Shown piece after piece: positions 3,800-64,000 of a stretch of DNA of 64,000 bases. The notes beneath the pieces were generated by a model that had not been told where the DNA came from, did not search any database, and worked only from the letters and a program-made list of their open reading frames with translations. The DNA comes from Polytrichum commune (Eukaryota > Streptophyta > Polytrichopsida > Polytrichales > Polytrichaceae), in NCBI GenBank assembly GCA_950295325.1, contig OX485807.1, positions 27,313,666 through 27,377,665 of the forward strand, read 5' to 3'. Numbering within the stretch: position 1 is the stretch's first letter; the number at the start of each line of letters is the position of its first letter. The position numbers were made by a program, and so were the translations under genes.

Positions 3800-3818
3800 A
3801 AGAGAGAGAGAGAGAGAA
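3800..3818. repeat. (AG)n microsatellite abutting the LINE 3' end
   Basis: An AG dinucleotide run directly next to the terminal GAAACTTCG of LINE copy 1. In the element's sense it is a (TC)n tail after the conserved 3' terminus. It could be part of the insertion (a simple-repeat tail) or the target site. Confidence 0.8.
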
Positions 3819-4067
3819 GAAACTTCGATCCCTGGAGGGACCGACGTGAATGAAGTGTCTGTTCGTTCCACCCCTAAACCTATGTCCACGGGACATAGGA
3901 GTAGAAGTGAGGAACTACTTCCCCCTTTCGAGAGTAGACACTATAGTCACAAGTAACCAGTAACAAATAAAAGCTAGTAACCAATGTTGGTTACTGGCAC
4001 AAAAAGAGACTGTGCCCAAGGGATGGTTTAATATAGGGTTTGTTTTGTTTAGTTTGACCTAGGGGGT
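3819..4067 (-). other. LINE copy 1 3' UTR with structured tail
   Basis: It follows the ORF2 stop. The outer part matches the 3' terminus of copy 2: an ACTATAGTGTC stem arm, a TCGAAAGGG segment, a second arm pairing with the first, TTCACG, and a terminal CGAAGTTTC. A perfect hairpin (CCTATGTCC, ACG, GGACATAGG) lies at about 3880-3900. LINE reverse transcriptases commonly recognise such tails when priming, so this is the likely recognition element. Confidence 0.65.
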
Positions 4068-5664
4068 TTAGGGGGGGTCTTGTATTTGAGGTAGAGGTTG
4101 GTGATTTTCAAGTCTTCTTTTGTGAAGCAAGATGGACATGGCGTATTGTATCGCAATGGTATTAATGTTTTTGAAGGTATTTCGGATGGATGTCATGGGT
4201 ATTTTAAATTTGTCTTCCAGTAGTTTCATTGATGGGATGTGTGTTGCGGCTCTGGCGCCTGCTGTAATAACAATAAGCGGGTCGGTTTTCCAACCTAGGG
4301 CAGTAATGCTTTCTATCAGTGGTTGGTATTTGTTATTTTTGGCTTCTAGAGTTGCTGGTGAAAATCTATCATTACAATATGTGAATTCAATGAATTGTAT
4401 GGTAACTGTTTGGTCTACATTTGTGGGGGGTGTATTTTGGTATGGTAGTCCTTTAACGCAAAGAATGTCGGGTTTAAAACGGGAGTTGCAGTGGCATCTT
4501 TGGGTTCCACATGTGCAGGGTAATAACCAGTTAGGGACGGTGTTTTCTTGGGGGTTGTCATTAAAGGTGCCAACGTTCATAAGGGTGTAGCATTGGGATT
4601 TTTCAGATGAGATTAGTAATTTCCTTATTTCCCATACTGCTTTGTTATGTCTTTTTACGTGTAGAGAGTGAATATGTTGTTGCCTACATGTGAGTAGTAC
4701 ATGTAGCCATGTGTCAGGTTCGTATGAGTTACAGATGGGACAGGTGATGGTGGGGAATCTTTGTCTGCCAAAGAAGAGTTGTTTTCTGGCTTGGCCCATG
4801 TAAGTTCCTGTACGAAATTTGATAAGACACGACTTCTGTTTGTCCGTAATAGTAGGGTTATTCCAGAAATCGTTAGAAAGTTCCTTGTCAATGTGTTCAT
4901 TACCTATCCATTTCCAAATATTAGGGGCTTGTGTGGCCATGTTTTCTAAGTTGTTTTTTCTGTCATATTTTTTGATTTGTTTTTCTAGGAATCTGGCTGG
5001 GCCCTTGTCTGGCGTGTCTATCATGGAGGGCCATTTGTCTTTTTGATAGTAGTAAGGTGTGGCATGAGCGTGTTCGTGTGGGTGTATGGCATTTCTGTGG
5101 GTAAGGTCCAGTCCTTCTTTTGCTAATTTATCTGCTTGTTCGTTGCCGTCTATGTTGACATGTGCTCTAACTTTGTATAATGTGGTTGGTTGAGAGCGTT
5201 TTTGGAGTAATTTTACCATGGAGGCAAGTGTGACTTGGTCTGGGTGACTATTGTGTAGTGTAGGGTGTTTGATTTGTGTGTTTAATAGGTATAGGACATT
5301 GAGGCTGTCGGTGAATATATATGCGGGCTCATTTGGATATTGGTCGTTGATAATTCGCAATGTTTTATGTATAGCCATCATTTCTGCTCTGAGGATATTC
5401 TGGTGGCCATATAGTCTTTCGGCTATCCTCAGTCCTTTAGGGCTATATATACCATATCCTGCCATTTCTTTCCTCCATACTCCAGTAGAGATTAGTTTGG
5501 GTTCTTTGAATGAACCGTCGGTATAATAACTGAATTGTGGATGGTATTTCAATGGTAAGTTAGTTTGGTAGTCCGGTAGTTGAGGCATAGGTGATACATT
5601 GAGTATGGGGGTATCGGGGTAAGTTAATTTGGACCACTTTTTGTTAGGGTTGACAGGGGTATTC
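4068..5664 (-). CDS. LINE copy 1 ORF2, C-terminal part: RNase H, CCHC knuckle, restriction-like endonuclease
   Basis: Numbering is from Met at 5588; the frame is open from the C run near 5665. RNase H (about residues 18-165) shows YYTDGS (Asp24), RAEMMAI (Glu69), FTDSLN (Asp94) and HVNIDGNEQAD (His143, Asp152), so the DEDD set is complete. It should degrade the RNA strand during cDNA synthesis. A knuckle follows: Cys283, Cys286, His296, Cys301, then KRHN. Next come a Cys cluster at 358-367 and a PD-(D/E)XK-like pattern: KPD (372-374), Glu401 in FIEFTYC, and KNNKY (417-421). That order matches the R2-type restriction-like endonuclease that nicks target DNA. This segment has no internal stop. 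It is one base out of frame with the PCIF1-like part because a nine-C run appears to lack one C. Confidence 0.8.
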
Positions 5665-5673
5665 GGGGGGGGG

Positions 5674-6445
5674 TGTGCATGGCAATCTGTGTGTATAGTT
5701 GTGTTATTGAGAGGTTATTTGCAATATGGGTGAGTTGATTTAACTGTGCATGGGTGCCTATGTAGTTATTTTGGTGGTGTATGCAGAGTATTTGTAGTGT
5801 GGAGAGTTCTTTCCTAGGTATATTAAGTTCAGGTGGTATAGTAGGTTCTTCGTATGTGATTGTATCTGCTGCAAAGTGAGCGATAATATGTGTATCTGGG
5901 AAAGGGCCCGAGTATGGGTTGAAGTTTTGGTACCAATTTGTGTCAGGTGAGATGATTATTGTGATGTTGCTTGGGTCATCTTTGGCGGCAAGACGGGCCC
6001 AATGTGTAGCCTGTAGTAGGTCTGTAGCGTTGTTGGGGTGGGCAAAGCCTATTCCATTCCATTTGTGGTCGAAGGCTTTCCCTAATGATCCAAATATTTT
6101 ATCTCGTGCGAATGGAGAGTAAAATCTATTAAGTTGTGTAGGGCATGTGACTGGGCATGAGAAGTATGAATGGCTAACGTTGAATGATGTGATGAAAAAA
6201 TTTAATATTGGAGTTGGTAATGTGTATTGGGCTAGTTTTAGAGGGTCATTTTTTGGGATCCGGTACCTGTACCTTTGGTATAGCCATACTATTTCAGTTT
6301 CGAATGGTTGTGTAGGTGGTTCTAACCCATGTGGGATATTTTGCGCGAGTTGGTATTGTTTCCAGAGCCAATGTAGTCTTGTTTTGGGAATGGTAATGAG
6401 GTGCCGTCCCTTGTTTTCATATATGTGAGCAACATCAAAATGCGT
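5674..6445 (-). CDS. LINE copy 1 ORF2, PCIF1-like methyltransferase domain
   Basis: The minus-strand frame is open from just after the TAA at 6446-6448 to the C run near 5665. The core (about 6205-5845) has FSCPVTC, FYSPFARDKIFGS, GIGFAHPNN, HWARLAA, ITIIISPDTNW and IIAHFAADTITYEEP. The same order occurs in the catalytic part of PCIF1, the cap-specific N6-methyladenosine methyltransferase: FSSPLNC, CSAFPDTDGYFGS, an NPPF motif and FIVFIPEW. The catalytic NPPF position reads AHPN here, so activity is doubtful. Copy 2 keeps the same domain at about 58860-59205. It lies between RT and RNase H and may bind the cap or 5' end of the element's RNA, which is inference. There is no in-frame ATG at its start. 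Confidence 0.65.
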
Positions 6446-8178
6446 TTAGATAGTATTTGTGGAGGTTTCTATGTCACTTTCGGGGTTACACTCATGGATA
6501 GAGATATGTGCCATTGGGATAATTGTTGCGGGGGTGATATATCTCGCGTCTCGTTGTTGTTTTGTGTCAAAGTGAGCGTTTATTAAGTTTGAGTAGTGTT
6601 TATGTTGTTTTTCAGTATAGTATTGTGTTAGTAGTCCAGAGTTGTGTGCACATGTGTTAGCTTCGTACCAAGGGAACATGTCTCTTTGGGTTAGCCATTT
6701 ATTATAGGTGGTATGGTTGTTTATTATCCATTGGCATAGATATGATGTGTCTTTTTTCATTATGCCATTGGAGTTAGTGTATTGTCGTTTTTTATGGTCA
6801 AGGATGGTGTGAATAGGGAATTGCCTAGGGTTTTTAAGCACGTCTCTTGGTGGGGGCGGGTGACGTGGGTGGGCTGGGTTTGGGGGGTGTAGTGGCGGCT
6901 CAGGTTGTCTAGGGAGAATGTTATGATTTGTTATTATGTAGTTTTCTTTTAGGGTTCTGGGTAGGTAGTGATGTGGGCATGGTTGTTGGCATTGAGGGGG
7001 GCATTGGGGGTGACAGAATAGTTGTTGAGCAATGTTTAGTGCACTTTTGATTAGTTTGGTAGGGTTGGAATAATAATTTTTAAAATCATTTGGGCTCATT
7101 ATGTTACGGCCATTGGGTAGAGTGATTTGCCCTAGTTCAGTTATGTTGTGTAGTAGTAGTTTTTGTAGTAGTTCAAGGGATGTTTTATGATTCAGGCCGT
7201 GCAAGTTTCGCGCTTCTTTCATCCAATCATTTTCAAGTGGAGAGGTATTAAACATGAAGTTGTTTATTGTGCTCTTTAGGTGAACTCCTGCTTTTTTTTT
7301 GAGTAGGAATAGTGTTCTACTTATAGGTGATCGGACACAATGGTGATATTTAATACGCGGTATCTCTTCGGCGCCACCAAATGTTGCTAATATAAATTGA
7401 AGCAATCCAGTATAGATTTTTCCTAGTCTGCCTGTGTCATTGAGGGCATGTTGTAGTTGTTCTCCTATACATCGTAAATAAGCATTTTTAAGTGAGAAGG
7501 CCTCTATGCCGAATAAGTCATGAGGGAGTTGTGTAGTTATGTTTGACGTGAATTTTGGTAGTCCACATATTGTTTTGTGGAGGGCTATAATTTTTTTGTC
7601 CAGTTTTTTGATGGCAGGTAGGGAGTATGGTACCGCGTAGAAACTATATGCAATTCCGGCGCGTATAACTGTGTCCGCCATGTTGATTTTTTGTTTCATA
7701 GTGGCTGGACAGGCTGCGAGATCTTTGCATTGTTTTATAACTTTGGTGGTAGTGGTGTGTATTTGTGTTTTCCATTTTAGTAAGGGGGCAAGATTTATTC
7801 CTAAATATGTGTATGGTTCATTTTGACTCAAAACTGGTATAGGTTCGTTTCTGTAGTTTATATTACTCGATTGAATTTGGGTTTTAAAAGCTAGGGGGCT
7901 CATTTTGGATTTGTTTGGGCATCCTGTAATTGCACACTTGGGGATTCCAAAATCCATGCCAGCCCATTCACAGAATCTGTCGAGTTTGTTGAGTTGTATT
8001 TGTATTGATTTTAATTTATTTGCTATTGTTGCTAGGTCATCGGCGTACGCTGCTGAGGAGATTTTTACTTTGGATGTTCCGAATGTGTATCCATTATTTC
8101 CCTGTTGTAACCATCTTAGAAGGGGTTCTAAGAATATGATGAATAGGTATGGGCTTAGGCTGTCTCCTTGTATTGTTC
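6446..8178 (-). CDS. LINE copy 1 ORF2, reverse transcriptase palm/thumb part
   Basis: Continues the RT after a frameshift. It starts with GTIQGDSLSPYLF (motif B region, about 8178), then AAYADDL (motif C; catalytic Asp pair near 8040), MDFGIPKCA (motif D) and YLGINLAP (motif E), followed by a thumb and a long connecting region rich in His and Pro (about 7030-6830). The frame ends at TAA 6446-6448 after NPESDIETSTNTI. Copy 2 has a stop at almost the same place. The motifs for polymerisation are intact. Confidence 0.85.
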
Positions 8179-10541
8179 CCCCTTTGAATGGGGATAGGTT
8201 GTGTTTTGCCAAAGTGTTCTCCTATAAATGTGGTCGTAGATTGCGAATATATATTTCCAATGAGGTTTATGGCATCATCTGGGTATCCAAGGTCTTTCAT
8301 TATTGCTAGAAGTCTAGCATGGTCTATAGAACCAAAAGCATTTTTAAAGTCTATGTATAGAATGTATATGTCATGTTTTGTGAATCTTGCATCTTCCAGT
8401 GCAGCAATAAGTATTTGGAGTTGTCTAGAGGTTCCTCTTTCTGCTCTGAGTCCTTCTTGGCTGTCATATAGTATTTGATATGTTTCTCCGTAGGCCGAGA
8501 GGATGGATGTCAGAGTACTTGTATAAAATTTATATATAGTATTGGCTAAAGCAATGGGTCTATGGTTTGTGAGTTGTGATGGATTACCTTTCTTATAGAG
8601 TAGGACCGTTAGGCTTGTTTTCCATGATGCAGGGATTTGTTTTTGTTTATAGCAGTGTTTGAAGAATAGGAATAGTAGTCTGTGAAAGCGTGGTGGCATA
8701 TTTTTTAATATTGAATTAGGAATTTTATCTGGGTCAGGGGCTTTGTTGTTACCAAGGTTTTTTAGACATAGGTCATATGTTTCTGAATCGAAGTATGTAT
8801 GGAGTGGAATTTGGGGTTCTCCACGTCGGTCTATAGTAAGGCCGTCAAGGTCGTGCCACGGGTATTGTCGTACACTACACGTACAATGTTGTGAGTGAGT
8901 TGTTTGATGGGCACATGTAGGGACTGTGGGACGATTACTAGTGGATTGTTGTGTGTATATTTCTTTTGCTATATCTTCAAGGCTAGTTAGGATGTTGTTT
9001 TGTCTATCTATGATAGAGTCTAGGGGTGAGGTTTCGGAGTTTCTAAAGACTTTCCTATTTATTTTCTTAGGACTTTTTTCATATAGTATTTTATATTTTG
9101 ATATTGCTTTTTGTATGCATTCTTTAGTATATTTTGTGGTTATGTTTCTAGCTTGAGTCTTGGCGGTTTTTGCAATTGTTGCTATATCCTCTATCCATAC
9201 GTTTAGTGAGGTGTTTGTTGTGGGTGGGTTGGGAATTTGTATGTGTTGGTGGTTGTGTATTTCATTTAGTATTGGGTGTGTTTGCCAGTTCGGGTCATTT
9301 TTTGTAATGTATATAATTTTTCTAATTAAATGATATGTGGCTAGATGTTTCTTCCATGGTTTAGCCAATTTGCGCGGTAAGAAGCCACCTTGCTGAGCTG
9401 TTCGATCTGTAAGTTGTGGTATTGGAGTTGCACTACATGTTTCTTCTATGTTTTGTGAAATTTTTCTTATTATGTTGTCTAGTGTGTCGCATGCGTATTG
9501 CCATTGGGTGTTCGTGAGATGATCATGATTTTCAAGGAGGGTGTTTAAGTCGTGTATTTGTGTGTGGTTTTCTTCAAAGAATTCTATATTAAAATTTTCA
9601 AGGTTTTCAAGTGGTATCGGGTTTAGGATCCTATTTTGTGTAATGTTATTGGAGGGTATGGGTCTTGCTATTAGTGTGTTATGTGGTATGTGGAGGGTGA
9701 TTGGATAGTGGTATGAGTTTAGGTCCATATGGGTGTTTGTTGTAGAGGAATATGTGTTGTTGTATGGTGAATTGATGTAGAATCCATCGATTAAGCTGGT
9801 AGATGTATAGTTGTTACCACCTTGTCTTAAGAATGTGGTATTTGTTGGGATGTATTCAAGATTTAGGGATGCAGTGAAGGTTTTCCAGTGTATGTCTTCT
9901 TCTTGTGGTGGTGTAATAGAGCTGTCATTTTGTCTACCTATAAGTGCAATGTCGCGGTTGAAGTCTCCGCATAGGGTGTAGATATGATCGGGGTGTACAG
10001 TAATTTGATTAGTGATTGTAGTTTTTATGTTGGGGGTGAGGTGTAGGTCTTCTGTGTGTGTAGGCATATACATATGGATAATTAGCCATGGTTTTAATGG
10101 TTGGTTGTTTATTCGTATTATTTGAAGATATGGCGAAATACTAGCCGATGTGGGAATTTTGGTGATATTACCATGGAAGGCATATTTGTTGTTTATAAGA
10201 GTGAGCAACCCTCCCCTTCCTGGTGTATAAGGCATCCGTTGTTGAATGCATCTAGTGAGTGCATGTGTGTTGTTAAATACGAGTTTGTATTGTGGGAATA
10301 GATTTTGAATATATTTCGTGGATTTGGTTGCTGTGAGTTTAGTTTCTTGGATGGTAATGATTGTTGTATTTGTTTGTGTGTAGGTAATGAGGCTTTGTAG
10401 GTTAGGCAAGGTTGTATTAAGTGATGATGTATTCCAAGTTATTATATTTGTTTCATGATTAGTGTTGGTGTTTATTCTAGTTGTCTGAATGGGTATATTT
10501 AGAAGTGGGGGTGGGTGAGAATATTCGTTTAGTGGTTCAAA
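8179..10541 (-). CDS. LINE copy 1 ORF2, APE-type endonuclease and RT fingers
   Basis: The frame is open from the TGA at 10542 to about 8179. The endonuclease spans about 10470-9680: NIITWNTSS, IQETKL (metal-binding Glu), GRGGLL, HMYMP, CGDFNRD, SLIDGFYI and a final NSYHYP. The last motif is SDH in functional APE nucleases and in copy 2, so copy 1 has an Asp-to-Tyr change. RT follows: NNKAPDPDKIPN (about 8745), SWKTSLTVLLYKKG, NHRPIALANTIYK, SQEGLRAERGTSRQ and YIDFKNAFGSIDH (motif A Asp). The frame is lost in a GGGGG run just after IPIQRG, where copy 2 has one base fewer. A linker at about 9600-8900 carries no motif I know. Confidence 0.85.
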
Positions 10542-11096
10542 TCATCTAAGGGATTTGTTTAATAATTTGATTGGTGAGAACGGGAATTTTCTTTGGAGTA
10601 TGGTAAGGGTTGGAGGTGATTCATGACTATGTATGAAAGTGTATAATTCTTGATGTATTGAGTTTGGAGGTACTATTATGTCTTGGTAGTTTTCTATAAA
10701 TTTAGTATATGGGTGTTGTGTATGGATATGTCTTTCTGGGGGGTTGGTGAGGTTAGCCAATTTGATGATTAGTGCGTTAGTCCATTCTATGTTGAATTGG
10801 TAGATGTTGGGTTGGGCTAATATATTATTGCAAATGTTTATGGAGGGGTTTATGGTTATAATAATGGCATATAGTATGTGGGGTAGGGGTGAGTGTTTTT
10901 GTGTTTGTGTGTATTGATATAGATGTGGGAATGTTAGGATTAAGTGTGGATGTAGAGGGTGTTCATGTTTTAGTATAGGGGCAAATGAATTAGCAAGGTG
11001 TTGGTATTCTGGATATAATTTTATTGTGTTAGGGATGAAGTAGGTGTTGGCTATTCTTTTGTGTGTTGTTGGATGTCTATGCAATACATTTGGCAT
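10542..11096 (-). CDS. LINE copy 1 ORF2, N-terminal extension
   Basis: A 184-codon open stretch starting MPNVLHRHP and ending at an in-frame TGA. The frame continues beyond the stop into the endonuclease, and copy 2 has Cys (TGC) at the aligned position, so the TGA is a point mutation in one long ORF2. The start is supported by the matching start of copy 2 at 53999 (MPNILQIHP). Shared blocks include LYPEYQHLA, NPPERH and PYTKF. I recognise no domain in it. Confidence 0.7.
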   Translation of the reverse strand: MPNVLHRHPTTHKRIANTYFIPNTIKLYPEYQHLANSFAPILKHEHPLHPHLILTFPHLYQYTQTQKHSPLPHILYAIIITINPSINICNNILAQPNIYQFNIEWTNALIIKLANLTNPPERHIHTQHPYTKFIENYQDIIVPPNSIHQELYTFIHSHESPPTLTILQRKFPFSPIKLLNKSLR

Positions 11097-11968
11097 CGGT
11101 GCAGGGTGAGGTTCAATGTCTCCACATTGTAATAGTGCTAATTGGTGGATGAAGTGATATCCTTGGTATTGCTTGATTTTAGGTTTTTATTTATTTATTT
11201 TATAGTATTTAATTAGTGTGTATTTACTTGTGGTAAATAGATTAGGTAGGGCATGTATTATTATTTTTTGGGGGAGTTTAAGGGGATAGTATGTGAGTTT
11301 AGTTTGTTTGTGTATTGGCTTTGTTATTGTATTATGTGTTTGTTGAAAAATGTGATAGTGTGGGTATCCTTTATGTCTAGTTTTGTGGCGAGGCCGGTAG
11401 GCCGAGCCCATTTGGCGTCTTGCAGGGTGCAAGTTAAGGCATTGATGCTGTGTCGGGTTTAATGTGTAATGTTGTCTCTCCCTTAAGTTATGAGGATTAT
11501 TTGTTATTTGGTGTCTAGTTTTAATTATTGTTTTAATTATCAACTTGTGTTTGTTACATAGTGTTTTGATTATGTTTTGTATTTTTGTTATAATGTAAGT
11601 TTGTTTGTAGGTTAAGGTGGGATGTTTGGTTTGTTTGTTGAGGGGTATTTTATTTGTTTGTTTATTAGTTTTGTTGTTTTTGAGGAGAGGTGTTGATTTG
11701 GTTTTAATATTTATATTGTTGATTTGTTGCTTTGTTTGAGTATTGATAAATACTAGTTTTGTTTTACTTTTGTTAATGTGATATCTATATATTTTGTATA
11801 TAGTATTTAATAATACTTTATAATATTTGTTTTGTTGTTTATTATTTTGTATATATAAATATATTTTGTATATAGTATTTAATAATATTTTGTAATATTT
11901 ATTTTGTTGTTTATTATTTTGTGTATATAAATATATTTTTATTATATTATGTTTTTCCATCGCTACAT
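11097..11968 (-). other. LINE copy 1 A+C-rich spacer between ORF1 and ORF2
   Basis: Very biased sequence (T/G-rich on the plus strand, A/C-rich in the sense strand) that translates to Asn, Thr, Lys and Gln strings in any frame. One GC-rich island breaks it at 11387-11411: in the sense strand GGCTCGGCCTACCGGCCTCG. The same motif appears four times in the copy 2 spacer. Direct repeats of an ATATATTTTGTATATAG type fill about 11780-11940. I treat the long open frame here as compositional, not as a protein. Confidence 0.65.
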
Positions 11969-13609
11969 ATGTCAAATCTAGTTTGACATATCCATGTGGT
12001 TTTTCAATTTCGGGGGTGTCGGGGTGGTCAGCTTGAAGGGTTTCCAAGGTGATGCGCATTTGTTTTTGGAGGAGTGCAATTTGTATCCTTGAATTTCGAT
12101 TTGACTCGGCTTGCACTTTGTCTGCATATATTTTTGTTTCTTCTACAATCTCTTCTTTGAGGAGGCTCATTTCTTTACGAATTTCTACTGCCCCTTTGCT
12201 CACCGCCTCTTCTACCATTTTACTTAAGTCTGCCTTTGTGTAACCTTTTGATGGTGCATTATCCAAAGCTTGAATCGTGTTGGCTAATGCGGTGTTCACA
12301 TCTGTAAAGCCTAGTCTGGCAAGTTATGAGGCGGAGGGAGCATCACTTCCGTCTGGGCTCTTAGGGTGAGGTGAAAACTCGACATATTTACCAAGAATTG
12401 GGTGGTTTTATTTTACGTACTTTTTGTAGACAGCTGCATTTAGACACTGCACGTTACATGATCCCACATGTTTCCCCTTTTCTAATCGGAAGAAAATGCC
12501 CGCCACATTTTCTTCTCCAAAGAGTTTCTTTATCCCTTCCTCTAAGGCGGCGGTCGTTTTAGTTTTGTTTAAGTTTTTTGCAATCAAAACTACCGCATTT
12601 TTTTTTGCCTTATCATCCTCGGAAAGTTTATCCATATTAGCAAAGTGTACCTCCATGATTTCATTGAAGAATGAGATTTGAAGGTTTTTAGTTTCTTTGC
12701 TTGGTTTGGGGATGGGGTTTTTATCCATGCAAATTTAGCACTATTATTCTTTTGTACATTGGTGACTTCAAATTCATATCCTCGTTTGAAGCCATCTTTG
12801 ACAATTTCTTCATGCAATTGGAACCACTTTCTATTTTTGAGTGTGGGGCTAGAAATTTTGACCGAGACCAAACTTGCGATGGCTATGAAGTCAAATGATT
12901 TGAATGCCTTACCTCTACAATAGGTTATATTATCCAATTTGAGAATAAATGACCTATTGCCATGAAGAAGATCATTGGGATCTTTCATTGGGTTCTTGAG
13001 GTGGAGTTTGATTGTTCCACTCCACCTCTTAGAACCGTAGAAGCAAATGATAGCTATAGGTTCCCCTAGGATTTCTCCTAGTTCAATATTCATAGCTTTT
13101 AACCTTGCTTCCGTTTTTGCATGTATTTCATCCCTTGACAAGTTTTGTTCACAAAGCTCAAAGGTTATGGCTACTTGGTAGTCAAGTGAAAACCCTCCTT
13201 CATCCACTTCTACATCAAAAGGGACTTGAGTGAGATTAAAGTGTCCACCTTCTTTACCATCCATCATTTTGGAAGGCCAAGCTTCTTGGGGGATGTATAG
13301 AAAAGAAGGGACCGCTTCTAGGTGTTCTAATGCTTCGTCATGTTCCATCCCAAACTTAACAAGTTCACTAACCGAGAATGTTGGTTCTAATGGTTGCCCA
13401 TTTTCACATGCAATTGCATTCATCGCATGGTATCCCAACCAAAAGTGGGGCCGTTGGGATACAACTCCTTTGCCCTTTGCCTTCTTTTGACTAGAGACAA
13501 TCATGACACCGACTTGTCTTTTTTGACCATTTGCTAATGCATCTACCATATCAACATTTTGCTCAAACAATTTCCTAGTGGCGGCAGTAACATTGGTGGA
13601 TGTAGTCAT
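11969..13609 (-). pseudogene. LINE copy 1 ORF1 (RNA-binding/coiled-coil type), broken
   Basis: The start is MTTSTNVTAATRK at 13609, equivalent to copy 2 MASKGK; the open frame upstream of it looks intronic. An N-terminal domain has GHFNLTQVPFDVEVDEGG, LDYQVAITFE, LKAMNIELGE and WSGTIKLHLKNP. A second domain (about 12600-12400) has VVLIAKNLNKTK and NVQCLNAAVYKKY, which may have an RRM-like fold. EFSPHPKS follows, and then a Lys/Glu-rich coiled coil (about 12240-12030). It probably coats element RNA, as other LINE ORF1 proteins do. Lesions: a frameshift near 12680 and TAA codons at 12408-12410 and about 12333. Copy 2 shares the architecture at 50090-51866. Confidence 0.65.
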
Positions 13610-13610
13610 T

Positions 13611-14178
13611 CTGTGACAAATACAATGTTTAAATGAGTGGCATGGTTTTTGTAGAGGTTTAACTAAGTCCGTACTTCTTATCATCCCTTTGTCAAATCTA
13701 TTCCACAAATTAAGTTGTGGGCCATATTGGATATTGGTTTTTGGGAAGAAGTGAAATTTACTATTATTGGTTTTGTAGCAACAACTATTAGCAATCCAAA
13801 CATGCAACACTTTCTTATTTTCTATATTAGTGTATTGTTGTGTTAGAGGTTCAAGGTGTGTGGGTGTTTTGATGAGATACATAAAGTTCCAATATGGAGA
13901 GGCATAAAAACATGGTTGTACTACTTTAGATGTTGATTTATCTTCATGTATGTTTTCATAACAACAACTTGAATACCCTTTCCAAAGAGTGTGAGAGGAG
14001 ACACGGTGAGAGGATTTCCAATATGGGGCGGCTACTATGAGCCATAATACAAAGGCAAGGATGGTTGCATATGCAACCTTCATTCTACCTCCTATCTTAA
14101 CAAAGAAAATTACTATGTGACTACTTTGTTATGTGTGTGCATCTAAATCTATGTGCAATGGTTGGTTAGAAACTTTAC
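13611..14178 (-). other. putative intron immediately upstream of ORF1, LINE copy 1
   Basis: In the sense strand a consensus donor (AAATCCCAG|GTAAAG, exon end at 14179) and an acceptor (TTTGTCACAG, ending at 13611) bracket 568 bases. The ORF1 ATG lies one base after the acceptor. Copy 2 has the same arrangement. Base composition changes sharply at the donor, from GC-rich to AT-rich. It is not demonstrated that it is spliced. Confidence 0.45.
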
Positions 14179-47852: not shown

Positions 47853-49828
47853 GAGAGGTAAAATGTTTTACGGTAGTGTATGCGGAGTGTGGGGAGAGAG
47901 ACGATGAGAGCGGAGCTCTGAGCCTACGGAGGTGGAACAGAGGAGCTTTGACGATGTGAGTACTGAGCAAGTTGTAGCAGACGCGAAGGGTGATTCCGGT
48001 CCGTCTATGTCACAACAGATTGCTTGCCTCACACGGTCCCATGCTTGCAAAGTTTGGTAGGAAGTGCGGCGTAGTAACTGGAGCGAGCTTGCAAAGTCCG
48101 CAAGTTTGTGGATCTGGCTTACCTTGGTGCCCAGTAAGGAGATCGGGAGATCTACTGCAAAGGGGAGGATAAGGGAGTGCTGCACAAGGGGGCTCCAGTG
48201 ACGCATCCATGGATCGACAGCGCCGCCCAGCGTACTTGGTGATCTGGAGTGGGAGTCACCGAAGCCCTCCCCAGCGACCTATGGCGAATTGAGGAGATCT
48301 TACGCCGAACACCGAAGCACTGGACGCGCCGGTCGGCTCGGAAACACGGCATACCGCGGTGTTCTGGAAGGCTGACCGAGACAAAGATCCGCTCTGGAGA
48401 ACCCCCAAGCGCATCACCAAAGCCTACCCTTGAGCAACGAACTCAGGACGCCCCTAGATCGGAGAAATTCTAGGCCTGTGGAACTCGCTCAAACGAGGCA
48501 CTCACAGCAGGATTTTTTGTGGGTACAACCAACTTTGATTCGTGCTTTGTATCCATGCTTGCTTAAGTGATGTATTGTCTATTAAAGTAGACGTAGTCGC
48601 ATAAGTAACCACAGATCCGCACCAAAGAGTCACACAGGAACTCAAAAATCCAAGAAGGGAGGTTGCTCGTCGGAAGAGAGACTACCTGTCGCCGACTAGT
48701 GGGAATCGAGAGAGCCAAGGATCGGCAACCCGGATGTTGGTCGACCCAACGTACCTCCATTCCCCCACATTGTAACAAGGTTCGTCTGCCCCACAAAGGC
48801 AGATTCGGGTGACTTGTGTGGGCGCCGCAGTTCAACAGCTTCAACTGGACAGCATCGCCGGATGGAGTGTAGGTCCTGCAGCTAGATCTCCACCAACGCC
48901 CCTCCCCAGACTTCTGCGGAGTACTTCGTGGACCGAGATCAACGAGGAACTACGTCCACCGGCCAGCTCGAAGGATCTCACCCTGCGATTGCCAAGGCGA
49001 CTTCACCGAAGCCTCGTCCCCAGCAGTCAAAGGGAAGATAGGTGAGCGGCATCGAAGCAAGGTGAAACTTCGGAGATCCGCAAAGCTTCAAAGCCGACAA
49101 GCTGCCCTGCACCGCCCTACGAATCACATCAAACTCTTGACCGACAAACCTGCGCACCGAACTCAAGGTATCAACCCCCACAGGAGCACCTAGGCCCGTA
49201 AAAGCTCGCTCAAAATCGACACACCCACAAATTTATTTGAGGGTACAGTCAATTTGATTTGTGCTTTGTTCTTCTATCTGCTTGTGTTGCACCTGCCTGT
49301 TCAACAGACGTAGCCACAGAGGCAGATACAGTTCTGCACCGAGGCACTTTACAGGGATCCACACCTCCGAGAGCTTCACCGAACGGAGGCTCCAACCGTA
49401 TTTCGCTGCTCCGACACACCGACCTTGCACTGCCGCTGCCCTTTAGTAATCTATGTTGTTCTAGGATTAGGCACAGTCGCCTAGGGTGGGTCTGTACCGA
49501 TTGTAAGTAATCTAGGAAGAGGCAGGTTGCTAGGTAGTATTAGTAGTGCTTGATAGTAAGGCTGCTTAACTAGAACAAACCTTAGTCCCGAATCTGAGAA
49601 GGAGCTGGGGGACTTGTCTTGATGGTGAGCAAAGACGCCGGTTTGGAAAGGGGAGGCAACACACTGTCACACACAACGAGCCTACCAAGCCCACCACACC
49701 ACCGTAGTTACTAAGGGCAGAAGCTCCTCCAACTCCACACCGCCACCGAACACATGCAATTGACTCTCCGCACCAAAACACATTATAGAATAGAGGCCAC
49801 AACAACGACATCCGACCACAACATCACA
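47853..49828 (+). promoter_or_regulatory. LINE copy 2 5' UTR with two diverged monomers of about 720 bp
   Basis: GC-rich, without a coherent reading frame. A segment at 48472-48640 (AGGCCTGTGGAACTCGCTC, TTTGTGGGTACAACCAACTT, TTGTGCTTTGT-like) recurs at 49192-49350, an offset of 720 bp. This indicates tandem 5' UTR monomers, which often carry LINE promoters. The first bases (GAGAGGTAAAATGTTTTAC) resemble the unit of the 3' fold-back array. Confidence 0.55.
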
Positions 49829-50089
49829 GGTAAGCCTTCTCACTCATACCATCAATTTGTGCTCCACATTCTAAAAACCATTCTAACTATTTGCCTTCAA
49901 CATAATAAGTTAGTACAAAAGTCCACAAACCTCTTTATAACAATGCATATAATGTCTAAAAAATATAATCAAACACACATAAGCTTTAATCTCCTCCATA
50001 AAGCCCGATTGCACGCGCAAAAAGGAGGAGGAGATGTAAGCATTACCTTAAAAACTCACCAACACTTTAGCAAATACCATGTGCAACAG
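49829..50089 (+). other. putative intron immediately upstream of ORF1, LINE copy 2
   Basis: The donor CATCACAG|GTAAGC and the acceptor GTGCAACAG bracket 261 bases, and the ORF1 ATG at 50090 follows directly. Copy 1 has the same organisation with different intron sequence and length. Splicing is unproven. Confidence 0.45.
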
Positions 50090-51866
50090 ATGGCAAGCAA
50101 AGGCAAGGCCGTGCATGACGCCATCATGCGGAGCCCCACCGACATCCATATGGAAGACACGGATGACACAATGGTCTTAGAGGCTAACCCAACAAAGAGG
50201 ACACAAGAAGCAAAGAAGGGGAGCAGTTCAAGCAAACGGAAAAAGAACTCTGAAATTGCAACAGGACTAAAAGATATACCCAAGGAATTTTGGCTAGGGA
50301 TTGTAGCCATGGAGAAGCTTGCTATCGATGAAGGGGTGAGAGCCAAAGACTGCAAACCATCTATGAAAAAAGAAGACCTCATTGGAATGGGCATATCGGA
50401 ATTGGAAGCAGAGGAGATGAGTCAAACAAACAAGATTGCATTCCCACATGTAAGGCAACTCCTCTACCCACTAGAGAGGCCGGATGGTAAAGGTGGGCAG
50501 CATTACAACCTAACCCAATTACCTATTGAAACGGAGGTTGACCCAAGCACGGGACTCTCCTTGGACTATCATGTAGCTGTCTACTTTGACAAACCCGCAA
50601 CAGATTATGCACACAATGAGATACTTACCATGGTAACAGCAAGGCTATCTCATATGAAAATTGAATTGGGGATAGGACTAGCGGAACCCATATATATCCC
50701 ATGCAAGGAAAAGGAGAGAAACAACAAAATAAAATTTTGGACAGGGACCATTAAGATCCATCTTAAGCACCCCAAGGTAGATGGCATTGGAATGCTCAAG
50801 GGGCTACGCCCCTTCATCATGACACTTGACAAAACCCCCACCTTAGGCAAGGTTTGCAAATGCTATGATGCAATAGCTCGAAACACTCTCCTCTCTACAA
50901 AAATTGAAAATCCTAAACTCCACCTCATATCTGCAAGTGAACTCCATAGGGATGTGCTCATTGAAAGTTTCATGAGGTTATGACTATGAAATAGCTAGTG
51001 TACAGAAGGTCAAGGAAGCAACATGGGGTTGGCTCATATCAACCACACCTACCTAGGCAAACCGGATCATTCAGTACCTAGTCCCATACAAACAAGAACT
51101 TATGCATGTAATAACACCACAAGCAGCCAAAGCAGAGAGAAGGAGTTGCGGTGAAGGACTTACGGAGGAGGAAATCAAAAAGAAAAATGCCACAATGTTA
51201 TGTCTTTACGGTCTTCACAAAATGAAGAAGGTTGAAGATACAAAAGAATCCATAAAAGCAGTATTAGGAGGATTGAATGTGGCATCCTTTTATTTCCCGG
51301 GGCAAGTAGGAGATTTACACAAAGGAACGGCCAATGTGCAATGCCTTAACGCCATTGTCTATAGACAATGGGTAGGCAAGACAGTTGAAATTTTTGGGAA
51401 GCATGTAAACTTTGCCCCGCACCCAAAAAGTTTACAAGGCGCAATACCACCCACCAAGGAGGAGCAAGAGAAACTAGGTTTTTGTGACATATCCACGGCA
51501 ATAGCAGACACACTTGAAGCAACTAGGAATGCACCTCAGACCAAAGGAAAACACAACATGGTTACACACGAGGATTTAGACGCACTAGTGGAAACCGCTC
51601 TGGATAAAAGACACGGACAACTCAAAATTGAGCTCAAAACAGAGCTTACAACAGAGATACACAAAGAACTGGGAGAATTCAAAAAAGAGGTATCCTTGGA
51701 AGCAGACATTCGGGAAGGGAGAATCACAAGAAACCTAACCTCACATGTCAAACTCCGGCTAGCGGAAATTCGGAAACAACTGGCACTAACATCGCAAGCA
51801 GTCAACATGACAACAAAAGCATTGGACTCTATCCTAACCCCAGAACAACCACAACTGGAAAACTAG
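50090..51866 (+). pseudogene. LINE copy 2 ORF1
   Basis: Starts MASKGKAVHDA, then a Lys-rich stretch (about residues 30-55). The conserved N-terminal domain has GQHYNLTQLPIETEVD, LDYHVAVYFD, LSHMKIELGIGLAEP and WTGTIKIHLKHP. A frameshift near 50976 and a TAG at 51054-51056 break it. The frame then continues through ATMLCLYGLHKMKK, NVQCLNAIVYRQWVGK and FGKHVNFAPHPKSLQG (possible RRM-like domain), and a coiled coil (51590-51830) to a stop. The parallel with copy 1 supports one ORF1 protein of about 590 residues, probably an RNA-binding chaperone. Confidence 0.7.
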
Positions 51867-53998: not shown

Positions 53999-56900
53999 AT
54001 GCCCAATATCCTCCAAATACACCCATCCACACATAAAAACAGATGCAAAATATACTTCATGGAATGCACCATCAAATTACAACCCGAATACCAACACTTA
54101 GCAAAACGATTTTCTCCTATAATAAATCTAACACACCCCAAACACCAAGACACAATTACTGCCTACCCATACCTATCAAGATACATTTATAGAAACCAAC
54201 ACCACCCACCCCCACGCATATTGTACGCACTTATTACCACAATTAGCCCAATAATAGAAACATGTAACCATATATTAATACAAACCCCAGAACCAGATTA
54301 GACAACAATAGTATTAGAACGTATGGCTTCACTCCAAAACCCACCGGAAAGACACATCATAATCATGCACCCATATACACAATTCCTCCAAACAAACCAA
54401 AACATTATTAACCCACCCACCACCATCCACAAAGAACTATATGATTTCATTAAATGTAATACACCACTAACCATACAAACAATGTCAGACAAATTTCCCT
54501 TTTTACCACTACAATTACTTATAGAAGCACTAAAATGCAATGAACCGCTCCACAAATACTCACACCCCCCACCACCACCCACCACACCCACCCTACACCC
54601 TCAAGAAAATCATACAACAAACTACAACACACACATAATCACATGGAACGCTTCATCATTAAACACAGCTCTACCAAACCTTCATCAACTTATATCCCAT
54701 ACACCAAACAAACCAACAATTATTACCATACAAGAAACTAAATTAACGGCAACCAAATCCACGAAATACATTCAAAATCTATTCTCACAATATAAACTAA
54801 TATTTAATAATACACACTCACTAACAAGATGCATACAACAAAGAAGGCCATATACACCTGCAAGAGGTGGACTCCTCACACTCATAAATAAAGAATATGC
54901 ATACCCAGGTAATATCACCAAAATACCTATCCCAGCTATAATATCACCATATCTACAAATAATAAAAATACATAACCAACCTCTACAACCCTGGTTAATA
55001 ATACACATGTATATGCCATCACACGAAGAAGACATAGGATCCATACTGCTAATTAAACAAAACATAACACAACAAACCATTGACCACCCAAACCATATAC
55101 ACATACTATGCGGAGACTTTAATAGGGACATAGCCCTAATTGGAAGACAAAACGACTACACCACAAGCAGAAGACACAGAATGACGCACATTCACAAACA
55201 ATCTACAACTTACATACATCCAAACAAACAGCCTATACTCTAGACAAGGAGGCCAAAACTACAACCAAACTAGCCTAATAAATGGATATTACATCAAAAC
55301 ACCCAATAACAACCTATACACATCAACCATAAACAATGACCACAACCTCAACTCAGACCACTCCCCAGTAACACTACACATCCCACGAAATACACTACTA
55401 GCCTGCTGTCTACCACCAACTATAGACAAACCCCCAAGGATCCTAAACCCCATCCCACATATAAACATCGAAAAATTCAAACCATAATTCTTTGAAGAAA
55501 ATGCACCATAGCTAAATGAACTCACGAACACCCTAATACAAGACCAACTAACAAATGAACAATGACAAACAACATGCACAAAATTTGACCATATCATACA
55601 AAAAATCTCCGACAAAATCCAAGATACATGCAGTGCACCACCTCTCCTAGACCTCACAAACCGTACATCACAACAAGGAGGTTTTCTACCAATAAAACTC
55701 CAAAAGAAATGGAAAAACTATCTTTCCACCTACCACCTAATTAGGAAAGCAATTTACCTGATAAAAAACACACCAAATTGGCAAACACACCCCATAATCG
55801 AAGAACTAAGGAACCATACCCAAACCCCCATCCCACCCCCCCAATCAAGAACCTAATCAACATGAATGGATAGCAACACTAGCCCAAATCGCCAAAACCG
55901 CACATATACATGCCTGAAAAATTGCCACAAAATACACCCAAGAATGCATTAAAAAAGCCATATCCAAATACAGACTACTATACGACAAAAGCCCCAATAA
56001 AATCAACAAAAGAGTCTTCACAAACCAAGAAACGCCCCCATTACACTGCATTACAGACGTAAACAACAACGTACTTACAAACCCCACAGACATAGCCAAT
56101 GAAATATACAACCAACAATCTATTAGCAATAGACCCACCGTACCAACAGGCTACCACCAACCAGAACACACACCAAAATGCACATGTGGTGTTAGACAAT
56201 ATCCATGGCACGACCTAGACGGATTTGTCATCGAAAAAGAGGAAACTCTAAAGCTCCACTACATGAATACTTTGACATAGCAACATACGATATGTGTTTA
56301 AAAAATCTAGCAAACAACAAAACACTCGGCCCCAACAAAATTCCCAACATAATCTTAAAAAACATGCCCGAAAGCTTCCACAATATATTTTTCTTATTAT
56401 TATCCCACTGTTACAGATGAAAACAAATACCAACTTCATGGAAAATAAGTCTAACAATATTACTATACAAAAATGGAGACCCATCAAAATTAACAAACCA
56501 CAGACCAATCGCACTTGCAAACACAATATATAAATTCTTTACGAGCTCCCTTACATCCATACTATCAGCATATGGAGAAAAATACCAAATCCTCCACGAC
56601 AGCCAAGAAGGATTCAGAGCAGAAAGAAGCACATCCAGACAACTCCAACTCCTCATAGCAGCACTAGAAGACGCAAGATTTACAAACCAAGACATCTATC
56701 TACTATATATTGATTTCAAAAATGCATTCGGATCTCTTGATCACGCACGACTATTAGCAGTAACTAAGGACTTAGGATATCCAGAAGATGCCGTGTCTTT
56801 GATAGGAAATATTTATTCAAATTCCAATACCATATTTATAGGAAAACACTTCGGAAAAACAAAACTCAAACCAATACAAAGAGGCACAATACAAGGTGAC

Positions 56901-57420
56901 ACACTCAGTCCATACCTCTTCCTAATATTCTTATAACCACTGCTACGTTGGCTACAACGAGGGAATAATGGGTACACATTCGGTACATCCAAACTAACAA
57001 TCAGCTCTGCAGCATACGCAGATGATCTAGTAGCCATCACAAGCAATCTTCAATCAATACAAACCCGATTACACAAACTAGACAAATACTGCGAATGGGC
57101 CGGAATGGACCTGGGAGTTTCAAAATGCGCTATCACGGGATGCCCAAACAAATCAAAAATAAAACCTGAAATATTCAAAACCAAAATCCAAGCCCAAAAC
57201 ATCCCCTACAAAAACCAACCACTATCCGTCCTACACCAAAACGAACCATACGTATATTTAGGCATACAATTAGTACCATCATTAAATTGGAAACTCCAAA
57301 CACACATCACCACAACCAAAATGATAAACCAATGCAAACTACTAACAAACTGCCCAACTACAATTAAACAAAAAATAAGTATGGTACGTAGACACTGTCA
57401 TCAGAGCCGGTATAGCATAT
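53999..57420 (+). pseudogene. LINE copy 2 ORF2, endonuclease and reverse transcriptase
   Basis: Starts MPNILQIHP, like copy 1. TAG at 54299-54301. The APE endonuclease (about 54640-55390) keeps IQETKL, RGGLLTL, MYMPS, CGDFNRD, SLINGYY and NSDHSPVTLHIP, with a frameshift near 55170. Several stops follow in the linker (55480-55920). RT: NNKTLGPNKIPN (56310), NHRPIALANTIYKF, SQEGFRAERSTSRQ, YIDFKNAFGSLDH, GTIQGDTLSPYLF and AAYADDL (57011). Polymerase motifs are recognisable, but stops (for example TGA after SHCYR near 56418 and TAA after LIFL near 56935) inactivate it. Confidence 0.8.
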
Positions 57421-58606
57421 AGCTTTTATGCAGTCCCATACTCAATGCCAGCTATCAAAAAATTAGACAAAAAAATTATAGGAATCCAAAAAGTAATATG
57501 TGGTCTACCTAAATAATAACCCACCTACCATACGACTTGTTTGGACTAGAAGCCTTCTCATTAAAAAATACCTACCTTAGATGTATTAGCGAACAACTCA
57601 AAAATGCACTTAATGATCCCGGCAGACTTGGCATAATCTACAAAGGACTTATACAACATATCCTTGCAAAATATGGAGGCGCAGAAGACATACAAAGAAT
57701 CAAATTCCATGACTGCACAAGATCACCTACAACACGAACACTATTTCTTATGAAAAAAGAAGGAGGAGCTTACCTCAAAAACATAGAAACAAATTTCCAG
57801 CTCCATGCAACTGAACTTGAAACATAATGGAAATCCCACAGTCGTACTACCACAACTAAACAAAGAACTATCTCTTAAACTACTATATAAACTCCTACAC
57901 TAAACATACAAAAAAAACACATTTCCCTTCCTAATGGCACACACTTAATGTCACCAACAGACTTTCAAACCTACTATAAAACCCCGACAAAACTAATAAA
58001 AAACTCACTACACATAGCAGAATAATTTTTCTGCCAACAAAGTTGTAACCAACACTGTCCAATCCAATGTAATAGACACCCACAAGCCCGCACACTCCAA
58101 GAAAAATACATATCAGATAATAGAGAATTACTACCCAGAATCTTGGACAACCCCTTACACCCGCCACCAACACAACAACCCCAACAACCAAACCCACCCC
58201 CCAACATAACAAATAACCCAATCAAATTCCCCATATACAACATACTAACCACAAATCAAACATAACGAAAGACAAATATAAAATAACAAAAAAATTTAAC
58301 ACATACCTATGCCAATGGTCACTCCAAAACAACGCAACATACTACAAGTGGATGCCACAAAAAAAACTATTCCCACCAAACCATCCCTCAGTAATCGAAC
58401 ACAACATAAACCTACTAAAAGAATATTATATAAGACAACAACACAACCACTACAACAAACTAATACATACCCATATAACCCCCATACAAACCAAAGACCC
58501 AAGATTCATACCACCACCTACAATAATACCACACACCCAAATATCAATAATATAATACAACCCAGAAAGAGACATTAATACAACGAAATAAACTATGCAA
58601 ACACAA
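57421..58606 (+). pseudogene. LINE copy 2 ORF2, RT thumb and connector
   Basis: Out-of-frame continuation of RT: FGLEAFSLKNTYLRCISEQL, DPGRLGIIYKGLIQ and RSPTTRTLFLMKKEGG match copy 1. Several frameshifts and stops. It ends with NPERDINTTK and a TAA, followed by ACT and an ATG. Copy 1 has TAA at the corresponding place. Confidence 0.75.
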
Positions 58607-59500
58607 AATGAAATAACACACATATATGAAGACACAGGGAGATATCTCATAACCATCCCAACCACCAGACTAAATTGGCTATGACAACAATACAACAAAG
58701 ACACCTACAAGACATACGGCCTAATACCACCCCCACAACCATTCGAAACTGAGGTAGTCTGGCTATATCAAATATATAATTCTAAAATACCAAAAAAATA
58801 TCCACTTAAAACATCTCCATACACTCTCCCACAAAACCTCCTTGACTCCGTTACAAAAGCATTTAACATTTCACACTCCTACTTCTCTTCACCAATAACA
58901 TGCTCTACACATATTACAAAATATTTCTCACCATTCACAAGAGATAATTTTTTTGGATCATTAGGCACCGCTTTCCAATACAAATGGCACGGAATTGGCT
59001 ATGCCCACCCACAAAACGAAGAAATGACTCAACAAGCAATACACTGGGCAAGCCTAGCAGCCAGAAATGACCCAGACACCATCACACTAATAGTCACACC
59101 AGACAGAAATTAGTACCAAAACTACTCACCACATACAGGACCGTTCCTAGACACACATGTCCTAGCCCATTTCGCCGCAAATACCATTATATATGACGTA
59201 CCAACAAACCCTCAAAACCTCAATAAACCACAAATAAAACCATTAGCAATACATATACTCTGCATCCACCACCAACACAATAATTTTGGCACTCCCAACC
59301 AAATAGACACAATCAAAACAACAATAGAAAACCTACAAATAGCACAATACCATATACAAATAACCCCACCCGCACCAAACAATATACCCGTAAACAAGAA
59401 CACTAAATGGAACAAACTACTCTATCCACCACATAATAACCCATCAATTACACCCATACCACCAATACCAAACTACGAAACCCAACACACATTAAAATTC
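58607..59500 (+). pseudogene. LINE copy 2 ORF2, PCIF1-like domain
   Basis: After the stop, a frame starting MQTQNEITHIYED runs into ITIPTTRLNWL, then FNISHSYFSSPITC, YFSPFTRDNFFGSLGTAFQ, GIGYAHPQNEE, HWASLAARNDPDTITLIV and TPDRN, and later LAHFAANTIIYD. The alignment with copy 1 is clear despite stops (TGA near 58681, TAG near 59111). The NPPF position reads AHPQ, so both copies lack the canonical catalytic motif. Confidence 0.65.
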
Positions 59501-60909
59501 CTACCACAATATAGCTATTACACCGACAGTTCGTTTATCCCACCCATGAAAGCTAATGACGGGCACTGGAAGAAAGAAAAAGTTGGATATGGTATCTATA
59601 ACCCAACGAAAATAGACATATGTATATCAAAAAGACTGCCCGGCCTACAAACCAGCTTTAGAGCCGAATTAATGGCCATACACAAAACCCTCAAAATAAT
59701 CACAACCAAATACCCGAACGAACCTACACGCATATTTACAGACTGTCTAAACTGCCTATATGTAATCAACACACAAATAAAACACCCAACTCATCATAAT
59801 AACCATGCTGACAAAATCATACTGACATCTATGGTTGAAATGTTAAAAAACCGAACACAACCCACTACGATATATAAAGTAAAAGCACACATAAACATTG
59901 ACAGAAATGAACAAGCTGACCAACTTGCAAAGCAAGGCACTAAAAAACAATATAGATTTGCTGCCAAAACATATGAATTTGCACATACCACACCATACTA
60001 CTTCCAAAAAGACACATGGCCGGGACCCAACAAAAGACCTGACAAAGGCCCAGTCCGATGCCTTGAAACATACCTCACTAAACACAATAGAGATAACAAC
60101 CTAAAAAGGTTGGCAATACCATTCCCCAACATTAACAAATGGACAACAAACCCAGACATAGACAACGAAATATCTAATCACTTCTGGTCTAACCCCACAA
60201 TAACAGATTCACAAAAGACTAGTATCCTAAAATTCCGTACCAGACAATATATGGGTAACGCTAGAAAACAACTATTTTTTGGCAGAAAAATATTCCCATC
60301 CATTACATGCCCAATCTGTAACTCACCAGATGCAGACACATGGCTATACGTACTATTAAAATGCAACCAACATCATATACATGCCCTCAGAACCAAAAGA
60401 CATAACAAAGTAGTATAGGAATTAAGAAAACTAATCCTACCATCACAAAAGTCAAGATGCTACACCCTCATGAACGCAGGAACATTTAACAACAACCCAC
60501 AAGAAAATACAGTCCCAACATGGCTTCTAACATGTACATGTACACAACAAAGATGCCACTGCAACGCTAGACTCAAACCTGACCTTCTATGTATAAAAGA
60601 ACTCCCGCACCAAAGCACCCCATCACCCCACCACCACACCCAACCAACAACCTAACGGTACAATTAATCGAATTTACATAAACTAATGATAGATTCTCAC
60701 AAGATACAATCAACAACAAAATCCAAAAATACCAATCATCAATTAACGACATCACCCAACAATGATGGAAAGTAGACCCACTTATAGTCATAACAGCAGG
60801 AGCTAGAGGAACCACGCACATTCCATCAATGAAACAACTTGAACAAACATTTAAAATCCCCGAAAATAATGTTAAAAATACATTCAAAGCAATAAACACT
60901 ATTGCCATA
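59501..60909 (+). pseudogene. LINE copy 2 ORF2, RNase H, CCHC and restriction-like endonuclease remnant
   Basis: RNase H: YYTDSSF (59517), RAELMAIHKTL, FTDCLN and HINIDRNEQADQLA; the four acidic residues remain. The knuckle has CPIC and KC, but the His is Tyr (WLYVLLKC). A stop follows KRHNKVV at 60416. LKPDLLC, LIEFT, IQKY and DPLIVITAGARG (60570-60815) are the remnant of the PD-(D/E)XK nuclease. Similarity to copy 1 stops at about 60909, where a GATA run starts. Confidence 0.75.
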
Positions 60910-60975: not shown

Positions 60976-61457
60976 TATATTTTACCTCTAAGTATGTTTT
61001 TTGTAAAAACCGCTATTTATGTAAAATATTTTACCTCTAAATATGTTTTTTGCAAAAACCACTATTTATGTAAAACATTTTACCTCTAAGTATGTTTTTT
61101 GCAAAAACCGCTATTTATGTAAAATATTTTACCTCTAAGTATGTTTTTTGCAAAAACCGTTATTTATGTAAAAACGTTTTACCTCTGAGTATGTTTTTTG
61201 CAAAAACCGCTATTTATGTAAAAACGTTTTACCTCTCAGTATGTTTTTTGCAAAAACCGTTATTTATGTAAAAACGTTTTACCTCTCAGTATGTTTTTTG
61301 CAAAAACCGTTATTTACATAAATAGCGGTTTTTGCAAAAAACATACTTAGAGGTAAAATGTTTTACATAAATAGTGGTTTTTGCAAAAAACATACTTAGA
61401 GGTAAAAAACATTTATATAAATAGCGGTTTTTGCAAAAAACATACTTAGAGGTAATT
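60976..61457. repeat. fold-back array, 49-50 bp units, seven forward and three inverted
   Basis: The unit contains TTTTACCTCTAAGTATG, then TTTTTTGCAAAAACCGC and TATTTATGTAAAA. Forward units start at 60980, 61029, 61078, 61127, 61177, 61227 and 61277. Orientation flips at about 61312, followed by three inverted units to 61457. The transcript could form a long hairpin. Units are contiguous, so this is not a CRISPR-like array. Confidence 0.9.
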
Positions 61458-63281: not shown

Positions 63282-63790
63282 TAAGGCCACTTCACACACG
63301 AGATTGAGAGCTCATGACCATTACACTTCAAGCACTCTCATTGGTGGAAAAGGCGGAGCCGGTCCAAGTTCACTTCACACTGCGCTTGAGGGACCAACGG
63401 AGTATGTGAATGTAAGATGGATGTAAAGTCTACATGGACTCCTACATGGCACCGAATGGATCATGTTTCATGTTCACTTGGACTATTTTCAAAAACCACC
63501 TCTTGGAGGTAGGCCTAACACAAAACCGGGAGACCACGGCACTCCGAACGCTCACCACCGTTGGTTTATTCTACTTTATCATGTGTGAGGACCCGCGTGA
63601 ATAGAAATTCATTGAAATAACGTTTGGTTGAGGGCCTGGTCACATATGACTTCACACTACACTCAAGGGTCCGTGACCACACTACGTGATTGTGGAGGTG
63701 TGTTGGGACGACGACCTTTGGACACTTTTCTTTTGGGCTCTCACAATCTCATGGTCACGGCTCTTGGCTCGTGTGTGAAGTGGCCCTTAT
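63282..63790. mobile_element. TIR element family C, copy 2 (about 505 bp)
   Basis: Left end GGCCACTTCACACACGAG and right end CTCGTGTGTGAAGTGGCC are inverted repeats, extending imperfectly through AGAGC..ATGACCAT. It shares its interior with 16656-17161. No protein encoded. Confidence 0.75.
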
Positions 63791-64000
63791 TCTATTTGAT
63801 CATGTGTGAGGACCCGCATGAATAGAAATTCATTGAAATAGCATTTGGTTGAGGGCCTGGTCACATATGACTTCACACTACACTTAAGGGTCCATGACCA
63901 CACGACATGATTTTGGAGGTGTGTTGGGACGATGGCCTTTGGACACTTTTCTTTTGGGCTCTCACAATTTCATGGTCACGGCTCTTGGCTCGTGTGTGAA
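63788..64000. repeat. duplicated right half of TIR element family C, cut by the window edge
   Basis: TATTCTATTTGATCATGTGT, then GGTTGAGGGCCTGGTCACAT and the rest repeat the segment from about 63565 at a spacing of about 222 bp. It ends in CGTGTGTGAA at the last base, so the copy is probably complete just outside the window. Confidence 0.8.

Follow-up and report, generated by a model that had tools for sequence, protein, structure and literature searches.

A LINE that is present twice in the window, the 64,000-nucleotide stretch of DNA analysed here, contains a PCIF1/CAPAM-like domain within its ORF2, between the reverse transcriptase (RT) and RNase H. The domain is near-constant in the element lineage within the part of the genome examined, and is clearly under purifying selection. 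Because this constraint persists without the catalytic signature of PCIF1, the domain is suggested to be a conserved pseudo-methyltransferase that serves as a nucleic-acid-binding module of ORF2 and does not make m6Am, a reading that we favour with moderate confidence.

In the first window copy, the domain (5627..6445, minus strand) lies in the ORF 5624-6445(-), which encodes 273 aa. The motif series named in the initial annotation is complete in this ORF and follows the same order: SYFSCPVTC, YSPFARDKIFGS, GIGFAHP, HWARLAA and SPDTN. The Pfam model PF12237 matches the domain at 33.0 bits (E=5.5e-8; cut-off 31.1). The match covers residues 43-147, about 6319-6005 of the window, and positions 15-120 of the 176 in the profile. 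PF12237, whose family name in Pfam refers to the WW domain, is described as a CAPAM/PCIF1-like methyltransferase model (PMC7641849). The proposed location between RT and RNase H holds as well: the upstream frames 6449-8221 and 8097-10541 both match RVT_1, and the downstream frame 4071-5714 contains RNase H. The domain of the second copy (58637..59413, plus strand) is 67.6% identical to that of L006, a copy with a long ORF2, and contains two in-frame stops (TGA at 58682, TAG at 59111). Both window elements are broken: each has frame changes, together with an in-frame TAA at 6448 in copy 1 and with stops in copy 2.

On these and the following sequence comparisons, homology of the domain to PCIF1 is regarded as secure; the PCIF1 fold itself is only putative. 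All 15 varied domain copies match PF12237 at E<=1 (best 7.4e-14), and the domains of three long ORFs (L006-L008; residues about 2,142-2,400 in the L006 frame) score 40.4-47.0 bits. Most of the genome matches extend no further than about position 144 of the 176 in the profile. Since the Pfam model could in principle include element sequences, PCIF1 was also searched for directly. Four queries, one window sequence alone and three profiles built from 8, 7 and 15 copies, were run against 177,635 PDB sequences; with E limits of 1 or 5, all matches are PCIF1 chains. The best E-values are weak: 0.33 for the single sequence, 0.063 for 8 copies, 0.37 for the longer 7-copy profile, which performs worse than the 8-copy one, and 0.012 for the more divergent 15-copy profile, which performs better. 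In the reverse direction, a 122-aa fragment of PCIF1 (PDB chain 6irx) yields two matches in the 408-Mb genome, with E=7.5e-4 and 9.2e-4 (threshold E<=0.001, 85 of 85 candidates scored). Both are element copies in which RNase H follows the domain (L035 and L036). The colinear homology to the PCIF1 catalytic region claimed in the initial annotation is thus supported by PF12237 and by PDB matches to PCIF1 chains alone. An unrelated fold, which the annotation had considered, is disfavoured at the sequence level, where no other family emerges; the structural side of this comparison yielded a low-confidence AlphaFold2 model from the two window copies (pLDDT 34.2, pTM 0.29). Scattered weak matches to other Pfam families occur in single domain copies and were taken as chance; the best is AdHead_fibreRBD, in 1 of the 15 copies (E=0.0018). 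No relatives were found in viral contigs using the 8-copy domain profile or the PCIF1 fragment, nor in genome contigs using the 8-copy profile.

The likeness to PCIF1/CAPAM (PDB 6irv and 6irx) comprises the PF12237 core and the colinear FASPLNC, D..FGS.G and A.P motifs. In contrast to PCIF1, the element domain has HPx(N/T) in place of NPPF and sits inside a LINE protein. ORF2 also differs in that most of the helical domain is unrecognisable and a WW domain is not detected; the Pfam scan of the three long ORFs contained no WW family at E<=1. Fusion of a CAPAM-like domain to unrelated modules is described for choanoflagellate eTudor proteins, which are cellular proteins, unlike the mobile element studied here (PMC7641849).

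The architecture of the element is best seen in the three long frames, which measure 2,919, 2,924 and 2,625 aa from stop to stop (fetched as L006, L007 and L008). Each encodes, in this order, a 2A-like motif, an APE-type endonuclease, RT with YADD, the PCIF1-like domain, RNase H, a CX2CX9HX4C knuckle and an RLE-like PD...E region. The active-site motifs of APE, RT and RNase H and the RLE-like PD...E are presumptive assignments. Pfam detects RT (RVT_1, 95.8-103.6 bits), RNase H (PF00075, 47.1-54.8 bits) and the PCIF1-like domain in all three frames. The APE family PF03372 is found in L006 only (25.5 bits, cut-off 24.5) and not in L007 or L008; IQETK, GDFN and SDH, which we take to be APE motifs, are present in each, as are the RNase H acidic residues. 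Among solved RTs, the best match is R2 (1.5e-26), followed by L1-type RTs (best 3.1e-14).

The same parts can be followed in the window. In copy 1, on the minus strand, the APE-type region (9810..10457) is similar to the APE segment of L006, the RT (7790..8588) spans a frame change with RVT_1 in two frames, the RT thumb/linker (6536..7765) is similar to L006 ORF2, and RNase H (5109..5531) scores 49.6 bits with PF00075. Copy 2, on the plus strand, contains the APE region (54596..55168), RT (56427..57296), the RT thumb/linker (57297..58247) and RNase H (59492..59950). The C-terminal region, which conserves CX2CX9HX4C, RHN and PD...E, lies at 4089..4799(-) in copy 1 and 60251..60909(+) in copy 2. 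It matches no Pfam family and no PDB sequence, and the putative RLE is assigned by motif. For RLE LINEs, PMC5678591 gives the knuckle as CX2-3CX7-8HX4C; the spacing in the element is one residue longer.

The 2A-like motif, with the published form D(V/I)ExNPGP (PMC4981915), is an exact GDIExNPGP in L006 and L008 and has one change in L007. It is degenerate in window copy 1 (GDIEPHPAP, 11097..11123(-)) and interrupted by a stop in copy 2 (about 53972(+)). An ORF1 precedes ORF2 in all five copies examined, at 12048..14128(-) in more than one frame in copy 1 and at 49715..51866(+) in two frames in copy 2. Aligned parts share 27-44% identity with the window ORF1s, and no Pfam family reaches its cut-off in ORF1. 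At its 3' end the element has a hairpin and then a tail of short repeats, TATC in L006-L008 and CT in window copy 1 (3817..3846(-)). Compared with shuffles, the predicted fold of the 3' end is stronger in L007 (z -4.17) but not clearly so in L006 (z -1.39).

This domain content fits a LINE of the Dualen/RandI type with a putative RLE-like end. Dualen/RandI elements are described as combining APE and RLE in one protein that also contains RT and RNase H (PMC4640811), and the element resembles them in its APE, RT and RNase H and in the putative RLE-like end. A short-repeat tail in place of poly(A), as in green algal RandI (PMC3747384), is a further likeness. The element differs in having the PCIF1-like domain and the 2A-like motif, and it is likened to Dualen/RandI by domain content, with the RLE recognised by motif. 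LINEs with a methyltransferase-family domain are already known: according to PMC5890265, the dinoflagellate SymbioLINE-Dnmt acquired a cytosine DNMT, which is located in an upstream ORF, whereas the PCIF1-like domain lies within ORF2. Among the open-access literature matches listed, no report describes a PCIF1-family domain in a retrotransposon, which does not establish that such a report is absent.

Copies of the domain are abundant in the genome. The pattern GIG(F/Y)A(H/N)P occurs exactly at 304 places genome-wide and at none in backward controls, and all 150 of the scored genome matches (697 candidates) pass the PF12237 cut-off. In a set of 35 loci (L001-L004 and L006-L036, in which L002/L006 and L001/L035 are the same places), RNase H is present in 35, the CCHC/RLE region in 34 and RT or thumb in 32. 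As these loci were selected via the domain itself and are therefore biased, the count was restarted from an RNase H motif, which has 260 exact matches (control 0). The first 100 of these 260 places were used; 94 of them fall within the range that the 100 listed PCIF1-motif places also span, namely contig C1 and 33 Mb at the start of contig C2. At 67 of the 94, a PCIF1 motif or Pfam match in the same orientation lies no more than 2.6 kb upstream, twice at unusual distances (1.7 and 1.9 kb). The remaining 27 places were fetched; 25 contain the domain or a part of it, and three of these (L046, L050 and L063) begin within the domain, like 5'-truncated copies. Overall, the domain is present upstream, complete or in part, at 92 of 94 RNase H places. 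At the two places without it, similarity to ORF2 is lost upstream of residues 2,402-2,405, again like 5'-truncated copies, so that absence of the domain from intact members of the lineage is rejected as far as examined. The possibility that the domain occurs only at this one locus, raised in the initial annotation, is not borne out: the 304 motif matches, the Pfam scores and the RNase H places together reject a single-locus accident.

The catalytic motif of PCIF1 is altered throughout these copies. PCIF1 ANPPF aligns with AHPx(N/T) of the element domain, and AHPNN takes its place in copy 1 of the window. The alignment comprises 62 rows, namely 28 domain copies and 34 fragments from 26 further loci; 51 rows are informative, one per locus or copy, after 10 gaps and 1 misaligned row were set aside. 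At the position of N553, H is found in 49 rows, Y in 2 and N in none. The position of F556 is occupied by N in 29 rows, T in 19, S in 2 and I in 1, and never by F. An N-bearing form is likewise rejected among the exact motif matches, with 0 of 304 genome-wide, in a pattern blind to residues other than H or N at this position. The change is specific to the domain, because the presumptive active-site motifs of APE, RT and RNase H are kept in all three long ORFs. Other parts of the domain are mostly kept, including WAR..A as well as FGS.G and FSSP..C, the latter two being AdoMet-side motifs in our reading. WAR..A, WY and D.H do not vary across 15 copies with 54-81% identity to the first.

The initial annotation had related the domain to the enzyme that makes m6Am, and had suggested that it could let the element recognise or modify the capped 5' end of its own RNA or of host mRNA. 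As for making m6Am, with H or Y for N553 and N, T, S or I for F556 in every informative copy, this function is unsupported. An active methyltransferase with a remodelled site, acting on the cap-adjacent adenosine (or another group) of element RNA or host mRNA, is accordingly weakened by the replacement of both residues in 51 of 51 copies, and the N553A and F556G mutations are described as lowering PCIF1 activity (PMC11550742). In Drosophila, a change from F to H in NPPF is proposed in PMC9479742 as a possible reason for absent m6Am. In honey bees, however, where the change is F to Y, that paper likewise finds no m6Am. While the conserved PF12237 core and FGS.G region, the purifying selection and a host without a detected PCIF1 exon able to act instead all speak for retained activity, we consider it unlikely. 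The H-P pair is strongly conserved, which could reflect altered catalysis rather than none.

Selection was assessed region by region, using pairs with dS >0.15 and leaving out stop-bearing or short-coverage copies and saturated-dS pairs. The median dN/dS is 0.135 for the domain (149 pairs, 21 sequences), 0.124 for the thumb/linker (29 pairs, 9 sequences), 0.116 for RNase H (252 pairs, 28 sequences), 0.102 for APE (10 pairs, 5 sequences), 0.071 for CCHC/RLE (154 pairs, 27 sequences) and 0.047 for RT (2 pairs, 3 sequences), all values being descriptive since the pairs share history. The domain thus has the highest value of the six regions, close to those of RNase H and the linker. This ranking, together with the changed Motif IV and the location in the linker, a region said to vary between RLE LINEs (PMC5678591), would suit a domain captured by chance that now merely sets the distance between RT and RNase H. 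Such a spacer would have little need for the invariant WAR..A, WY and D.H, and we regard this explanation as improbable.

The pseudo-methyltransferase reading raises the question of what the domain may bind. Located between the RT thumb and RNase H, it could bind the element RNA, or the RNA/DNA hybrid as it emerges from the RT, and would help to hand either of them to RNase H. It might also recognise the 5' end of full-length RNA. METTL14 supports METTL3 without catalysing, and the domain may play an akin role, without making m6Am. RNA binding, cap binding and template hand-over are functions that we infer by this analogy.

In a narrower version, the domain is catalytically dead but can still recognise a capped 5' end as PCIF1 does, which would give full-length capped templates an advantage. 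The cap-binding site for m7G in PCIF1 is described as likely lying between the helical and methyltransferase domains (PMC11550742). A second, sub-threshold match pairs WLW.QY...GLEPPTQSFE of the element domain with PCIF1 LRQHYRELCQQREGIEPPRESFNR in each of the two solved sequences, within the N-terminal part of the helical cap-binding domain (R239, R269). However, this match scores below 0 bits in every printed case (-3.5 to -0.2). It is separated from the methyltransferase core by about 20 profile positions in the element as against about 255 residues in chain 6irv, so that the helical domain is mostly missing or unrecognised. We therefore treat dedicated cap reading as doubtful, and retain the broader nucleic-acid-binding pseudo-methyltransferase as the preferred explanation.

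According to PMC8868631, prokaryotes lack PCIF1, and its origin can be traced back to the last eukaryotic ancestor. In the host, the search with the PCIF1 fragment (408-Mb genome, E<=0.001) detected element copies only and no canonical PCIF1 exon, although one could be concealed by introns, divergence or gaps in the assembly. Hundreds of copies of a PCIF1-family domain are carried by a genome without a detected canonical PCIF1 exon, and for this reason it would be informative to learn whether this plant has m6Am. The label "algal" given to the element in the initial annotation is doubtful, since matK, psbA and ycf2 stand side by side within 3.9 kb on a plastid contig, suggesting a land plant or a close relative, with a streptophyte alga as a less likely source. 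Seven contigs measure at least 40 Mb, a number that might, speculatively, match a moss with n=7.

To the question of how a LINE gives preference to its own full-length RNA, a domain of a cap-recognising family beside the RT in ORF2 would offer a concrete and testable answer. More speculatively, and with a rather low probability in our view, the LINE may have converted the family of cap methyltransferases into an internal sensor for capped 5' ends, or into an altered modifier, with which the RT complex checks that its template has an intact capped end; the domain would then be the sole PCIF1-family protein in the host.

Several further features were observed. In the 3'UTR of L006, the element strand contains GGGAATCGAACC, with similar sequences in L007 and L008; it resembles an antisense tRNA B box, a tentative reading, and ARAGORN found no tRNA in L006-L008. 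No Rfam family was found in the window at gathering scores. Strand bias is strong over ORF2 and the spacer at 4001-12000 and 52001-60000, with GC skew up to 0.47 and -0.58, and weak over the ORF1 stretches. Copy 2 ends just past 60,909 at the inverted 3' end of another element copy, which is adjoined at 60979-61455 by a 50-bp unit in two head-to-head arrays (6.8 and 2.9 copies). The window also contains chromodomain and SNF2 exons, and a 221-bp tandem repeat of 2 copies (63566-64000) runs to its end.
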